64,000 bases of DNA from Thermococcus siculi (GCF_002214505.1 NZ_CP015103.1:1426001-1490000), one strand, 5' to 3'; positions 18,729 to 24,737 are shown, counted from the stretch's first letter. Notes: generated by a model from the sequence alone, not told the origin. Translations and numbers: made by a program.

Positions 18729-18802
18729 CTTTATTACTACAATCCATTAAAATTCCCGGCACCCTTAAATACCTTGAGGCCCCTATCTATACCGTGGTGT
18801 CT

Positions 18803-19819
18803 ATGGAGGATGCTACATTTAAATGTGAGAGGTGCGGTGCACCCCTCGAGGTATCGCCCGAGACGATAGTCGCCGTCTGCCCCTATTGCGGCTTCCCGAA
18901 CCACATAAGCGGCTCGCTCAAAACGGAGAACATCCACATCGTCCCGACCATCGACAAGAACGCCATAGCGAAGGCCTTCTGGGACAGGGTTGATCGCGAT
19001 TTTGACCTCAAGAGGATGAAGGATAAGATCGACGTGGTTGATATAGAGGGCCACTACGCTCCCTACTGGACTGGAAAGGTGCATGTTGAGGGAATCGTTG
19101 AATACACCGTCCGCGAGGAGGAGTGCCACACCGATTCCGAGGGGAACACCGAGTGTTACACCGTTGAGAGACACTACCGCGACCACGTGAACGAGGTTCT
19201 CCCGCTCATAGGGTCCGCGCGCAGGCAGGTCGAGAGCTTTGGCGTGGACGACATCATCAGGCACTACTCCAGGGCCAGACCGAAGGGGAAGAGACTCCTT
19301 GAGCTGGGCGAGGAAGAGTGGGGAAAGGTAAAGCTCGAGATCCTCAACACCGAGATGGACGAGAAGCAGGCGAAGATGGTGATGCGCGAGGATGCCATAG
19401 ACGTGATAAGACACCGCTACTCCGCCAAGGCCGACAGGATAGACCGCTTCGATGTAACCGCGGATGAACCCCAGGAGGTTTCTCTGGTTCTGCTCCCGAT
19501 GTGGGCGGTCTACTACAAGGTCGAGAACTCGATATTCTACACCGTCTTTGCCGGTTGGGACGGGAAGGACGTTGCATCGACCGAGCCAATGCCGATCTGG
19601 AGGAGAATGCAGTACCTCACAGGAACGGTGTTCGGAATGCTCATAGGTGCCGCCGGCGGGGCTTATGGAGCTGTCAACGGCTCCCTGGTGGTCTCACTGC
19701 TCGCGATAATCCTCGGGGCCGGAATGAGCGGCTACTTCGGCAACCTCGTCCTTGAAGGCCAGAGAACCGAGAGAACCGGCGGCGTTCTGGGCAACTTCAT
19801 GGGAGGACTCAAGAGGTGA
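18803..19819 (+). CDS. Zinc-ribbon membrane protein A of a YdjG-like operon
   Basis: A 338-residue protein. The N-terminal zinc ribbon is CERCG...CPYCG (residues ~8-33). A long soluble region (~50-265) follows, containing YAPYWTGKVHVEG and PMWAVYYKV, the repeated 'aromatic-P-x-W' strands seen in bacterial YdjG-type proteins. Two C-terminal membrane segments are rich in Gly (GMLIGAAGGAYGAVNG and the next). It is a paralogue of the next gene. ATG 18803 follows GGTG, with TTAAATACC about 40 nt upstream; earlier in-frame starts overlap the promoter. The role is probably membrane anchoring of an SPFH complex, by analogy. Confidence 0.75.
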   Translation: MEDATFKCERCGAPLEVSPETIVAVCPYCGFPNHISGSLKTENIHIVPTIDKNAIAKAFWDRVDRDFDLKRMKDKIDVVDIEGHYAPYWTGKVHVEGIVEYTVREEECHTDSEGNTECYTVERHYRDHVNEVLPLIGSARRQVESFGVDDIIRHYSRARPKGKRLLELGEEEWGKVKLEILNTEMDEKQAKMVMREDAIDVIRHRYSAKADRIDRFDVTADEPQEVSLVLLPMWAVYYKVENSIFYTVFAGWDGKDVASTEPMPIWRRMQYLTGTVFGMLIGAAGGAYGAVNGSLVVSLLAIILGAGMSGYFGNLVLEGQRTERTGGVLGNFMGGLKR

Positions 19820-19824
19820 TTCCG

Positions 19825-20724
19825 ATGGAGGTTACATGCCCCGTATGTTCCGCCACATTCAAGGTTCCCGACACGGTCACCGTAGCTACCTGCCCCTACT
19901 GCGGAACGACTTTCCACATCCACACCGGCGAGGAAGCCAAAGAGGAGCACTACTTCTTCCCGCCGATGAGGAAGGACGCCGGTGGGGTTCTTCTCAAGTT
20001 CCTGTCGAGGCAGTACGGCGCCCCCGCGGACATAACGGACGCTAAAGTTACGAAGAAAGAACTCCACTGGGTTCCCGTCTACTTCTTCTACCTCCACGGA
20101 AGGAGCAGGAGATGGTCGACCATAGAGGAGATAAGGTTCGTGGGAATTCCCGCCGGTTCTCCGCTCAGGGAACTCCTCACGGATTACCCCTTCCCGATAA
20201 GGGGAAAGAGGTTCTTCGACGAGGCAGTGGTGAAGAAGGGCCGCTACTACGACCCGGAGCTGTCCAGGGAGAAGGCAGAGGGCATGGCTAGGGCGCTCAT
20301 GGAGAGGGCACTGAAGAGCGAGGCAGCTGAGGAGGACAAGTCCCTCGGCGGGGCCGAGATAGAGGTCAGATACCTTGGACTGGTGCATTACCCGGTGTGG
20401 GAGATCCACTACGAGTACGGCGGGGAGTCATTCAGTGGCTACGTCGACGGAACCGACGGGAGGGTGATTCGTGCAGAGTATCCACTGATGAGCGGCGCGA
20501 GAAAGAAGGCCACGCTCCTCGGCTCCGGGGTTATTGTGGCAGGGCTTATCTTCGGTCTCGCTGCCACCGGCGCCTACGGGAGCGCCTGGGGCCTCGCGGG
20601 AGGACTCGTTCCGGCATTGGCTGGAGCCTTCGGGATATTCCGCAAGGGCGCCGTTAGGAAGAGAACCGTTGGTGAGGTTGGAAGGGCCAACCGCGATAAC
20701 CTTTACTTCAAACCGATGAGGTGA
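19825..20724 (+). CDS. Zinc-ribbon membrane protein B of a YdjG-like operon
   Basis: A 299-residue paralogue of the preceding protein. It has the N-terminal ribbon CPVC...CPYCG, mid-protein HWVPVYFFYLHG and HYPVWEIHYEYGG strands, then two hydrophobic Gly/Ala segments (VIVAGLIFGLAATGAYG and the next) and a basic tail. GAGGTGAT overlaps the previous stop and sits four bases before ATG 19825, so translation is coupled. It probably forms a heteromeric membrane platform with protein A. Confidence 0.75.
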   Translation: MEVTCPVCSATFKVPDTVTVATCPYCGTTFHIHTGEEAKEEHYFFPPMRKDAGGVLLKFLSRQYGAPADITDAKVTKKELHWVPVYFFYLHGRSRRWSTIEEIRFVGIPAGSPLRELLTDYPFPIRGKRFFDEAVVKKGRYYDPELSREKAEGMARALMERALKSEAAEEDKSLGGAEIEVRYLGLVHYPVWEIHYEYGGESFSGYVDGTDGRVIRAEYPLMSGARKKATLLGSGVIVAGLIFGLAATGAYGSAWGLAGGLVPALAGAFGIFRKGAVRKRTVGEVGRANRDNLYFKPMR

Positions 20725-20728
20725 TACC

Positions 20729-21223
20729 ATGGGGAAGGAAACCAAGCTTTTGGAGAAGATTGAGCTTGCCGTTCCCGGCTACCACGGCTACAAGAAGAAG
20801 GAGCTGATGCGCGAGGACGACAGGATAATCCGCGGAAAGGTAGCGGACATTCTGGCGATGGCAAGAAAGGACATGGAGCGCGCCCTCCAGAGGTGCGCCA
20901 TGGTGAACTGCCAGCAGCTGGTTGCCATCGACGGCATGAGGAAGAAGCTCATAGCCCTCGAGAGCAGGGTTAGGCACGCGGAGGCCGGCTATTCAGGCTA
21001 CTTCGACAGGATAAAGGTCAGGGAGGACGAGCTGAACGCGCTGATAGAGTACGACGCGAAGCTGATAGAGCTGGCTCAGGCGATAGCCGATGCCGTCGGA
21101 AAGCTCAACGGAGCGATAGCAGACCCGAGAAACCTCGGTATGGCCGTTTTTGACCTCGACGACAAACTGAGGGAGCTTGAAGAAACGCTCGATAAGAGGA
21201 ACACCGTCCTGGTGGGTGAGTGA
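20729..21223 (+). CDS. Helical protein of the zinc-ribbon/SPFH operon
   Basis: A 164-residue, almost entirely alpha-helical protein with heptad-like segments (EDELNALIEYDAKLIELA; DDKLRELEETL). Two Cys (RCAMVNC) lie near residue 55. No family was recognised. Its place between the zinc-ribbon proteins and the SPFH protein matches the position of a helical peripheral partner. Bacterial Ydj operons also carry a helical PspA, but this protein is shorter (PspA is ~220 residues) and I see no clear PspA sequence signature. The gene is 4 nt after its neighbour and ends next to the following start. Confidence 0.7.
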   Translation: MGKETKLLEKIELAVPGYHGYKKKELMREDDRIIRGKVADILAMARKDMERALQRCAMVNCQQLVAIDGMRKKLIALESRVRHAEAGYSGYFDRIKVREDELNALIEYDAKLIELAQAIADAVGKLNGAIADPRNLGMAVFDLDDKLRELEETLDKRNTVLVGE

Positions 21224-21224
21224 G

Positions 21225-22238
21225 ATGGTGCAGGTGATAGAGTGGGTCAACCCCGGAGAGGACGAGATAATCTGGCGCTACCCCAACGAGGTCATAAAGT
21301 GGGGTGCCCAGCTGATAGTCCACGAGTACGAAGTGGCCATCTTCATGCGCGACGGCAAGGTCTACGACGTCTTTGGCCCGGGAAGGCATACGATAACGAC
21401 GCAGAATTTGCCCCTTCTCTACAAGCTCGTCGGGGGGAGCAACAGCCCGTTTAAAGCTACCGTAATCTTCGTCAGCATGAAGCAGTTCCAGGGACGCTAT
21501 GGTGGTGAAACGCAGACGAGGGAACTCGCCCCGGTTAAGTACTATGGCGTCTACTGGTTCAAGGTTGCCGACCCGGTTCTCTTCCTGACAGAGGTCGTCG
21601 GCGGCCAGAGCCTCTACGACACAGCCGATGTCACCAAGTTCATCAGGGCCTACTTCAACGAGGGCATGATGAAGCACCTCTCCGCTTACTCAATCGTTGA
21701 CCTCTTCCAGAACCTCGATATGGTCAGCACGCAGGTTAAAGTAAAGCTCATGGAGGACTTCAGGAGGCTTGGCTTGGAACTGGTCGATGTGAAGATTGAA
21801 GGAGTCAACACCACCGACGAGTGGCGCCAGAGGCTCTTCTGGATAATGCAGACTGGCAACGCCCAGGCAGTCATGCAGATGGACACCGCGAAGCAGGTCG
21901 CCCACGAGCTGGGCCAGAGCGAGGGGGCTGGACTCGGAACGGGGATGGTGGTGATGCCCCAGCTCCTCCAGCAGCCTGCCCAGCCCACCCAGCCGGCTCA
22001 GCCATACGCCGGCGGTGGCGTTCCTCCGGCAGGTTATCAGAATCCTCAGCAACCAGCCCAGCCCGCCACTCAGTCACAGCAGCAAACCCAGGAGATATGC
22101 CCCTACTGTGGGAAGCCGATTCCACCGGGAGCGAGGTTCTGCCCCTACTGCGGCCACGAGATAAAGCGCTGCCCCAATGGACACATCGTTCCTGAAGGAG
22201 CGAAATTCTGCCCCGTCTGCGGGGCGAAGATCGAGTGA
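21225..22238 (+). CDS. SPFH-domain (YdjI/virion-core-like) protein with C-terminal zinc ribbons
   Basis: A 337-residue protein. Residues ~1-225 form an SPFH domain of the YdjI type: IEWVNPGEDEIIWRYPN at the start, VKYYGVYWFKVADP in the middle, LELVDVKIEGVNT near the end. A low-complexity Gln/Pro linker (~250-295, PAQPTQPAQPYAGG) leads to two zinc ribbons, CPYCG...CPYCG and CPNG...CPVCG. SPFH proteins form ring or cage assemblies on membranes; B. subtilis YdjI recruits PspA. The start ATG 21225 overlaps the previous stop region, so this is the last gene of a coupled four-gene operon. Confidence 0.82.
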   Translation: MVQVIEWVNPGEDEIIWRYPNEVIKWGAQLIVHEYEVAIFMRDGKVYDVFGPGRHTITTQNLPLLYKLVGGSNSPFKATVIFVSMKQFQGRYGGETQTRELAPVKYYGVYWFKVADPVLFLTEVVGGQSLYDTADVTKFIRAYFNEGMMKHLSAYSIVDLFQNLDMVSTQVKVKLMEDFRRLGLELVDVKIEGVNTTDEWRQRLFWIMQTGNAQAVMQMDTAKQVAHELGQSEGAGLGTGMVVMPQLLQQPAQPTQPAQPYAGGGVPPAGYQNPQQPAQPATQSQQQTQEICPYCGKPIPPGARFCPYCGHEIKRCPNGHIVPEGAKFCPVCGAKIE

Positions 22239-22262
22239 GCTTTTCTCCCCATTATTTTTCTG
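22239..22262 (+). terminator. T-rich terminator after the SPFH operon
   Basis: CTTTTCTCCCC and TTATTTTTCTG directly follow the stop codon, giving archaeal oligo-T termination signals without a hairpin. Confidence 0.4.
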
Positions 22263-22272
22263 AGCGGTGGTA

Positions 22273-22376
22273 ACCTTTATATACCCTCGCGGAATACATA
22301 CCATTGGGTTCTAATCATGCAGAGTTGCACTCCAAAAAGGTAACACGCAACTGAAAAGTGCGGGAAGGTGTTCGGA
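22273..22376 (+). promoter_or_regulatory. Promoter and structured leader of the solute-binding protein gene
   Basis: CCTTTATATACC (22273-22284) is a strong TATA element. Transcription would start near 22308, leaving a leader of ~70 nt, long for this genome. It holds AGTTGC (22323-22328)/GCAACT (22347-22352) and an overlapping GCACT/AGTGC pair, so two mutually exclusive stems can form. Confidence 0.45.
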
Positions 22377-24737
22377 ATGAAAAGGCTCCTTCTCGTCACC
22401 ACACTCGTTTTGATGCTGCTGGTGCCGTCTGTTAACGCCGTAACTGAGCCGAAGGTGAGCACCATTGAACTCCAGGGCATCCAGAACTCCAGAGATGTTG
22501 TCAAGGAGGTGGCCGAGGGAAGGTACGATATCGGCATCATCTCAATGCCGATGGGGGAGTACATAGAGCTTGGAGGGGATGTCCTCGAAAAGCTGAATCT
22601 CTATCCCCGGGCCGTTTCCTACAACGAGCTTACCTTCAACACCTACCACGATCCTGACAAGGATGCTCCAATAGTCACCGTTGGAGACAAAGTCTATTTC
22701 AACCCATTCGCCGTCCGGGAAGTGCGCTTTGCTCTCAACTATCTCATAAACAGAAGCTACATAGCCGGAGAAATTTACGGGGGCGGCGCCGCTCCGATGT
22801 TTGGCTGCATAAGGCCAAGTCATCCAGCCGACAGGTACTTCGAGCCGGTGTATCGTGCATTGAACCTAACGGCCGCTGGAAACTTGAGCAGGGCTATGGA
22901 GCTTTTCAACCAGGGGATGGAGAAAGCTGTTCAGCAGGTTGCCGTGTACAACCATACCCTTGAAAAGATCAACGGCACCTGGTACTTTGACGGCGAGCCT
23001 GTGACGGTGAAGTTTGTAATCCGCATCGAGGACGAGAGGCACGAGATTGGCCGGTACATTGCCAATCTTATCCAAGAACACTTCGGTTTTAAGGTTGAGA
23101 AGCTTGAGTGGGACAGGCAGAAGGCCGTTCAGGTTGTCTTCGCCACCCCACCGAGCGAATACGAGTGGAACGTCTACACCGGTGGATGGGGCACCAGCGG
23201 TATTCCAAGCCTCTGGGTTGATGATTACACAGCTTGGTTCTACTCGGCATGGTACGGCTATCTGCCGGGCAAGGATGAACCCAAGCACAGGAACACCCTA
23301 ACGGTGGGGGAGTTCCTGAGGGCCGTTGGTGACGGCGACCCGGATGCAGGACTGAAGGCGATAAACACCACGTTTTACAAGAAGGCCGCCCAGCTCGGCG
23401 GAATACTGGGCTGGACCGAAGAGGAGCTGACGAAACTGCTCGTCCACTTCAGCCTTGAGGCCGATGGCGAGAACTACACCATCGGAAGCCCCGAGCAGTA
23501 CTGGGACCTCCAGAGGATATCGATGGGGATTGGGATAATGGAGGGCGCTAGGATATTCCTCGTCGAGGTCAGGGAATTCTCACCCGTCAACAGGGAGAGG
23601 GTTTCGGGAGTAAAGGCGGATCCGAACGTGGGACTCTTCAGCAGGTGGAGCCTCCTGAGCGCGGAAACGCCCGACGGTGTTCTGAGGGTGGGCCACATGG
23701 TCTACACGTGCGCCTACTTTTGCTCTCCCTTCAATCCCGTGGGGGGATTCAGAGGATGCTCCCCCATGGTTCCCTTGCTGTGGGGTCTCCTCCACGATGA
23801 GGCTGGATACGTCGACTCCGACGGTCTCTACAAGCCCTACCGGTGCACCTGGGAGGTTGAGCGCGGAAACTTCACCGTTCCTGTGGATGCTGTCATCTAC
23901 AACCAGACCCAGGGCTGGATTGCAAAAAACGCTGGGAGGACCGCCAGAGTCCGGGTTAGGGTTGCCTGCGACCTCGGCCAGTGGCACGACGGGACCAGGA
24001 TGAGTATAGCTGACCTCAAGTACTACGTCGCCTTCCTGTACACCTGGGCTTACAAGGACGGTTCAGACGACCCGTACTACGAGGAGGCCCTCTCGGAGAA
24101 GGCCGAAATGCTCAATAGAATACTTGGCTTCGAGTTCACGGATAACGGCTACGTTGCCTACGGCTCCTTTGTTCATCCCTTTGCCGACGACGTTACGGCC
24201 AGGGTCTACGTCCTCTATCCGGACCTCCCGTGGGAGCTTTACTACGCGATGGGCGAGCTGGTGGCGAATGGCACCGCCTATGGAGTTTACAGAAAATACT
24301 CCTTCGGGGAGACCCATAAAAAGGCCGAGTGCCTCAACCTCCTTACCAGGGAACACGCGGAGGACGTTAGGAAGGTAATGGCGGCCCTCCTGGAGAAAAA
24401 GACCGTTCCTGAGGCAATCGCCGGGGACGTGAGTAATCCGGATGAACGCTACGCGAGGGCCATCCGGTGGATAGACACCTTTGGCCACGCGGTGATAAGC
24501 AACGGGCCGTTCTACATTGAGGAAAACCGCCCGGCGGAGCTGTTCATGAAGCTCAGGGCATTCCGGGGAGAGTCGCCCCTTCCATCCCCTTCAACCACGA
24601 CACCCCTCCAGAACGGTTCTTCCGTCTCCACCACAGAGGATCAGAACGATTCTCGGGCAGCCGGAAGCTCTTTAATCTACATCGCCCTGGCGACCCTTCT
24701 GATACTGGTAGTGCTGCTCATCAAAAGGAGGAAGTGA
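22377..24737 (+). CDS. Membrane-anchored solute-binding protein, family 5-like, orphan
   Basis: A 786-residue extracytoplasmic protein. A signal peptide (MKRLLLVTTLVLMLLVPSV) is followed by a peptide/oligosaccharide-binding (SBP_bac_5-type) fold, in two parts around GGWGTSGIPSLW and WHDGTRMSIADLKYYV. A Ser/Thr/Asn linker (~725-755) and a C-terminal membrane anchor with KRRK follow. It has several Cys pairs (CAYFC, GCIRP), unusual for such proteins, which may form disulfides. No permease or ATPase genes adjoin, so it either uses a transporter elsewhere or has become a receptor. ATG 22377 follows GGAAGGTG. Confidence 0.8.
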   Translation: MKRLLLVTTLVLMLLVPSVNAVTEPKVSTIELQGIQNSRDVVKEVAEGRYDIGIISMPMGEYIELGGDVLEKLNLYPRAVSYNELTFNTYHDPDKDAPIVTVGDKVYFNPFAVREVRFALNYLINRSYIAGEIYGGGAAPMFGCIRPSHPADRYFEPVYRALNLTAAGNLSRAMELFNQGMEKAVQQVAVYNHTLEKINGTWYFDGEPVTVKFVIRIEDERHEIGRYIANLIQEHFGFKVEKLEWDRQKAVQVVFATPPSEYEWNVYTGGWGTSGIPSLWVDDYTAWFYSAWYGYLPGKDEPKHRNTLTVGEFLRAVGDGDPDAGLKAINTTFYKKAAQLGGILGWTEEELTKLLVHFSLEADGENYTIGSPEQYWDLQRISMGIGIMEGARIFLVEVREFSPVNRERVSGVKADPNVGLFSRWSLLSAETPDGVLRVGHMVYTCAYFCSPFNPVGGFRGCSPMVPLLWGLLHDEAGYVDSDGLYKPYRCTWEVERGNFTVPVDAVIYNQTQGWIAKNAGRTARVRVRVACDLGQWHDGTRMSIADLKYYVAFLYTWAYKDGSDDPYYEEALSEKAEMLNRILGFEFTDNGYVAYGSFVHPFADDVTARVYVLYPDLPWELYYAMGELVANGTAYGVYRKYSFGETHKKAECLNLLTREHAEDVRKVMAALLEKKTVPEAIAGDVSNPDERYARAIRWIDTFGHAVISNGPFYIEENRPAELFMKLRAFRGESPLPSPSTTTPLQNGSSVSTTEDQNDSRAAGSSLIYIALATLLILVVLLIKRRK

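Follow-up and report, generated by a model that had tools for sequence, protein, structure and literature searches.

A small helical protein encoded next to a YdjI-type SPFH gene in a zinc-ribbon membrane-protein operon of Thermococcus siculi

We analyzed a 64,000-nucleotide stretch of the Thermococcus siculi genome (GCF_002214505.1 NZ_CP015103.1:1426001-1490000), hereafter the window, in which four open reading frames (ORFs), P1 to P4, lie on the + strand at positions 18803-22238, counted from the first letter of the window. A first-pass annotation, made from the sequence alone, had described them as four coupled genes encoding a pair of paralogous zinc-ribbon membrane proteins, a 164-residue helical protein, and an SPFH protein that carries a Gln/Pro linker plus a pair of zinc ribbons, and our analysis agrees with that description. 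YdjI-type SPFH proteins are known mainly for bringing PspA to the membrane. The new element in the operon is the pair formed by the gene of the helical protein, P3, and the SPFH gene, P4: P3 is probably a dedicated, so far undescribed SPFH partner.

We assign this role to P3 because of what follows its gene in other genomes. P3 alone was used as the query against 84,980 genomes, yielding 333 relatives, of which the best 80 were kept; these loci are those most similar to an archaeal P3, were not chosen for SPFH, and do not constitute a random sample of the 333. An SPFH gene lies next downstream on the same strand in 79 of the 80 loci; in the remaining one, L138, P3 is shortened and no SPFH piece lies nearby. 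The median gap between P3 and the SPFH gene, measured over 94 loci with Thermococci included, is about 1 bp. Among 115 genomes of the phylum, 57 carry both P3 and P4, 57 carry neither, none carries P3 only, and one carries P4 only (Fisher 1.9e-32, a value that overstates the independence of the genomes). The P4-only genome is 81% complete, and only a fragment was found there. The titles of the archaeal loci include Bathyarchaeota, Nitrososphaeria, Brockarchaeota, Geothermarchaeota, Theionarchaea, Jordarchaeia, and a Thermofilaceae archaeon, and those of the bacterial loci include Chloroflexi (Chloroflexota), WOR-3, and Fermentibacteria; in addition, a very distant, weak relative of P3 is adjacent to an SPFH gene on an alphaproteobacterial (Polymorphobacter) plasmid. 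P3 is not confined to archaea. The literature that we found covers pspA-ydj, bacterial band-7 neighborhoods, and the SPFH protein of Methanobacteriales ESCRT systems, and within this incomplete coverage none of it describes the P3 pairing.

P3 (20729..21223, + strand, 164 amino acids [aa]) is a predicted four-helix protein and the constant upstream neighbor of the SPFH gene. It had been called unrecognized; Pfam has no family for it, yet it falls within the reach of the uncharacterized NCBIfam model NF047596 (LIMLP_15305, from Leptospira), which is matched by all 43 sampled P3 relatives (best E value, 1.2e-19). P3 of the window itself scores 22.6 bits over residues 19-161, far below the curated equivalog cutoff of 210, and by its sequence it is a distant relative of this family that falls below the curators' membership rule. 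In the literature, LIMLP_15305 appears in a single paper, only as the neighbor of a small RNA. An alignment of the 43 sequences, drawn from many phyla, defines a family signature, PG[YF]xGYKxKExxRExD, at residues 16-31 (20774..20821, + strand), in which P16, G17, G20, Y21, K22, K24, E25, and R28 are invariant and E29 and D31 are conserved at 90% or more. A second conserved block reads HAxxGYxGxFD. The AlphaFold model of P3 is a compact four-helix bundle that follows a short helix (predicted local distance difference test score [pLDDT], 87.8; predicted template modeling score, 0.85), with no helix longer than 35 residues. The N-terminal helix is modestly amphipathic, with a mean moment of 0.52 versus 0.33 for shuffles over 41 sequences. 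No convincing solved relative of P3 was found by sequence, and its best fold matches in the PDB are assorted bundles with Z scores up to 12.7, within the noise for helical bundles. We note that one Bathyarchaeota P3 (L135:7797-8459) starts with a zinc ribbon similar in kind to those in which P4 ends; the ribbon has moved between the two partners, which speaks for their association. A fusion of P3 with SPFH was considered and rejected, since the sole ORF matching both profiles is a P3 with its own zinc ribbon.

The first-pass annotation suggested that P3 stands where a PspA-like partner could be. This part of the proposal is not supported: a sequence relationship to PspA or ESCRT-III was not found, and hhalign comparison of 43 P3 with 14 PspA sequences gave a probability of 0.5%. 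Pfam matches were listed for 29 P3 members with E values up to 10, and none of those is to a PspA or Snf7 model. The PspA model has no match in the genome of the window and, across the 115 genomes surveyed in the phylum, none above the cutoff; the sub-threshold matches in 50 of these belong to different reading frames, many of them about 1190 aa long. Outside the phylum, PspA was found in 3 of 34 P3-bearing genomes, all from Chloroflexi records. The Snf7 model likewise finds nothing in the genome of the window, a weak test given that this model hardly matches even in Sulfolobus, and the absence of PspA and ESCRT-III chains among the listed rows of the P3 fold search is no proof either way. The TPM_phosphatase domain of YdjH has no match in the genome of the window, and the B. 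subtilis control was positive.

P4 (21225..22238, + strand, 337 aa) carries its SPFH domain at about 21270-21836 and matches Band_7_1 (PF13421) with 115 bits against a cutoff of 24 (E value, 1.2e-32). It is the sole protein in the genome of the window to match this model, and among the control genomes only four have Band_7_1 members, B. subtilis among them. P4 is thus placed in the Pfam family of YdjI, as the first-pass annotation had it, the assignment being made via the shared family; a published primer sequence for the B. subtilis ydj genes gave no hit in viral contigs. P4 has no membrane segment (highest 19-residue hydropathy, 1.04). A Gln/Pro-rich linker, read from the translation, is encoded at 21972..22094 (+ strand), followed at 22098..22235 (+ strand) by two C-terminal zinc ribbons (CPYC..CPYC and CPNGH..CPVC), which are covered by two stretches of Zn_Ribbon_1 and by DZR; the second ribbon opens with C-x3-H rather than C-x2-C. 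Full-length Thermococcales orthologues of P4 are 86-95% identical, and no convincing solved relative of P4 was found by sequence.

P1 (18803..19819, + strand, 338 aa) and P2 (19825..20724, + strand, 299 aa) are paralogous over their full length (hhalign probability, 99.8%; E value, 2.1e-29; 272 columns). In each, a single zinc ribbon with four invariant cysteines lies at the N terminus, ahead of a soluble domain, and hydrophobic segments lie at the C terminus. In P1 the hydropathy profile has a single clear peak at residues 290-308, and a second membrane segment is less certain. The AlphaFold model of P2 (pLDDT, 86) comprises the ribbon, an alpha/beta domain, and adjacent C-terminal helices at 223-251 and 255-275, a putative two-helix membrane hairpin; in the PDB fold search, clear local matches were obtained for the ribbon (RBR-like) and the membrane hairpin only. 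YdjG itself was described by Ravi et al. as having two ribbons, a YpeB-related domain, and a membrane segment (PMC11237479). The PepSY/YPEB model gives weak matches to 17 of 50 P2 relatives (best E value, 0.0016), and P2 of the window reaches an E value of 0.11.

As a YdjG-like stand-in for this comparison, we used an SPFH-linked protein of Vibrio coralliilyticus. On a plasmid of this species (L064), a YdjI-type SPFH gene is followed by one for a 352-aa, two-ribbon protein, and the P1 and P2 profiles cover the second ribbon of this protein, its whole soluble part, and its membrane segment, with direct-profile E values of 6.5e-17 for P2 and 7.1e-10 for P1 and values of about 1e-26 for wider iterated profiles. 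The Vibrio protein is arranged as YdjG is and is matched by both profiles, which argues that P1 and P2 are YdjG-like. The earlier comparison of the two proteins with the YdjG type is supported by homology to this Vibrio protein, though each has one ribbon instead of the two of YdjG.

P2 is present in 51 of the 57 genomes of the phylum that carry P3 and P4. P1/P2-type genes also occur in tandem together with P3-SPFH in other archaeal groups (11 of the 80 loci), and in many Bathyarchaeia one related ribbon protein takes the place of the pair; the iterated P1/P2-like profiles may catch other zinc-ribbon proteins, and neighbor counts beyond the clear tandem pairs are approximate. Several other Thermococcales (L051-L055 and L058-L060) have a second P1/P2-like pair without an SPFH or P3 gene, which is absent from the genome of the window. 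In several of these genomes, the SPFH-free pair is directly upstream of a TIP49 (RuvB-like) AAA+ gene.

Like the B. subtilis pspA-ydjGHI operon (PMC8581546, PMC11237479), the P1-P4 operon combines a soluble Band_7_1 SPFH protein bearing a C-terminal zinc ribbon, a YdjG-type zinc-ribbon membrane partner, and a helical partner. The likeness drawn by the first-pass annotation is upheld for the SPFH protein and for P1 and P2. It breaks down at P3, which is not PspA, and at YdjH, which has no TPM counterpart here. There are also two single-ribbon YdjG-like paralogues in place of one double-ribbon YdjG, the gene order is different, and the promoter is archaeal rather than sigma-W dependent. The Vibrio plasmid pair, in which a YdjI-type SPFH gene precedes a P1/P2 homologue with the full soluble part, differs from our operon in having two ribbons per chain and no detected P3 gene. 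Another archaeal zinc-ribbon SPFH protein is found in a membrane-remodeling context in the Meth_adaptin ESCRT systems of Methanobacteriales (PMC10936438), but those loci contain ESCRT-III, Vps4, and adaptin-like genes, none of which is in the P1-P4 operon.

In the model that we favor, and to which we give an even chance, YdjG-like proteins anchor an SPFH scaffold formed by P4, and P3 serves as the dedicated adaptor of this scaffold. Soluble P4 would, most likely, oligomerize on the inner face of the membrane. P1 and P2 would sit in the membrane with their ribbons in the cytosol and anchor P4, which lacks a membrane segment and would therefore need them. This step is modeled on B. subtilis, where YdjG and YdjH anchor YdjI: YdjI is probably soluble and requires both proteins for its membrane localization, and the foci of YdjI and PspA are lost when ydjG or ydjH is deleted (PMC8581546). 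P3, whose predicted four-helix bundle comes with a short amphipathic helix at the N terminus and a conserved PGYxGYKxKExxRE loop, would bind P4 and enable the scaffold, once assembled, to retain or recruit membrane as well as client proteins; we infer this adaptor role from its near-obligate pairing with P4, and P3 might instead be a membrane-active substitute for PspA or a factor that binds clients. A function in membrane maintenance, as first proposed, or in membrane stress would follow by analogy with the B. subtilis system. The four genes are conserved together, and the analysis revealed neither folds unrelated to YdjG/YdjI nor a lack of co-occurrence in other genomes.

Several points weigh against this model. 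Adjacency of the P3 and SPFH genes is no proof of physical contact, and co-occurrence within the order is partly due to shared ancestry. The anchors are not universal, as P1 and P2 are absent or replaced in several P3-SPFH loci (L065 and those of Chloroflexota). The soluble domain of P2 has no clear match in the PDB, and the N-terminal helix of P3 is only modestly amphipathic. Finally, a complex of P1-P4 at the membrane is a prediction from genes, and so would be its interactions, localization, and phenotype.

SPFH proteins often work in protein quality control, presenting clients to a protease or chaperone. By comparison with HflKC-FtsH and stomatin/NfeD, the operon could encode a quality-control or assembly chaperone for membrane proteins, whose SPFH cage would hand clients over to a protease or chaperone with its gene at another locus. 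We consider this unlikely. The frequency of such roles in the SPFH family, the chaperone-like function that Ravi et al. proposed for band-7 partners of PspA (PMC11237479), and the TIP49 AAA+ gene next to the SPFH-free P1/P2-like pair would all fit, but the operon itself has no protease or AAA+ gene, and none was recognized as a constant neighbor of P3-SPFH in the 80 loci, where most neighbors were clustered only and not annotated.

The position of P3 in an otherwise YdjG/YdjI-like gene set, at the place taken by PspA in B. subtilis, raises another possibility, namely, that P3 replaces PspA functionally, as an unrelated helical protein that is recruited by the SPFH/YdjG-like complex and itself binds and remodels the membrane. 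The near absence of PspA (0/115 genomes of the phylum and 3/34 P3-bearing genomes elsewhere, above the cutoff) and the conservation of the short N-terminal amphipathic helix are consistent with such a replacement. However, P3 has no sequence relation to PspA, its model is a compact bundle rather than a long ESCRT-III-like hairpin, amphipathic helices are common in soluble bundles, and PspA may be absent from these archaeal groups for unrelated reasons; we regard the replacement as improbable. We are similarly doubtful of the broader proposal that P3 defines a widespread PspA-free membrane-repair system, in which an unrelated, membrane-active helical protein is recruited by a YdjI-type SPFH scaffold. 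If it were true, many archaea and Chloroflexota would rely on this system for the task that PspA/ESCRT-III performs in B. subtilis.

A zinc-ribbon-based, membrane-linked regulator that senses the state of the envelope and acts on nucleic acid or transcription is very unlikely: P1, P2, and P4 have zinc ribbons, and the ribbon type of YdjG can bind DNA according to Popp et al. (PMC9239133), but such ribbons commonly serve for contacts between proteins, and beyond them P1-P4 have no DNA-binding or signaling domain. We find an antivirus defense module hardly credible, since the patchy presence in the phylum (57/115) and the activation of B. subtilis pspA-ydj by phage SPP1 infection (PMC11153139) are set against the lack of any match among 5027 PADLOC models at an E value of 0.01, the strong conservation of P4 among Thermococcales, and the absence of defense genes alongside in the flanks that were read.

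In a large family of loci that spans several archaeal and bacterial phyla, an SPFH gene has a constant partner other than PspA, which suggests that an SPFH/YdjG-like platform can be combined with more than one kind of helical protein. P3 is a named, testable partner for YdjI-type SPFH proteins, and genetically tractable Thermococcales offer a route to membrane upkeep in archaea that lack PspA.

In the complete 2.03-Mb genome that contains the window, P1-P4 are separated by gaps of 5, 4, and 1 bp. An archaeal TATA-box-like promoter element, CTTAAATAC, is present at 18764..18772 (+ strand) as a consensus match only; it lies 31-39 bp upstream of P1, and the spacing is similar in several closely related genomes. 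Downstream of P4, a T-rich stretch at 22240..22260 (+ strand) could serve in transcription termination, and a separate TATA-like box of the next gene follows at about 22275. P1-P4 most likely form one transcription unit, since they are bounded by a promoter box upstream of P1 and by the T-rich stretch and next TATA-like box downstream of P4. The next downstream gene (22368-24737), which has this TATA-like box of its own and lies outside the operon, encodes a family-5 solute-binding protein.

Other genes occur beside P3-SPFH elsewhere. In 35 of the 80 loci, a conserved oxidoreductase-like gene (about 461 aa, with a flavin adenine dinucleotide-type N terminus) is located upstream of the ribbon-protein gene and P3-SPFH, for example, in the Bathyarchaeia loci L072, L083, and L116. 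Two Thermococcales (L039 and L040) have a variant cassette composed of a methyltransferase-like gene, P3, SPFH, and two further genes, whose products are a protein of 331 aa and a zinc-ribbon protein of 503 aa; in its SPFH protein, a SHOCT tail replaces the zinc ribbons. In some archaeal metagenome-assembled genomes (L069:5153-6742 and neighbors, L067/L034, and L068/L035) and in a WOR-3 bacterium (L095:4308-7300), a radical S-adenosylmethionine/SPASM maturase with a PqqD-like part is encoded beside P3-SPFH. It is accompanied by a membrane protein of about 530-550 aa that ends in a cysteine ladder (..SCVCACVSCACACACVSCACACAGGGGF), and the two look like a modified-peptide tail, similar to those of ribosomally synthesized and posttranslationally modified peptides, linked to the SPFH module.

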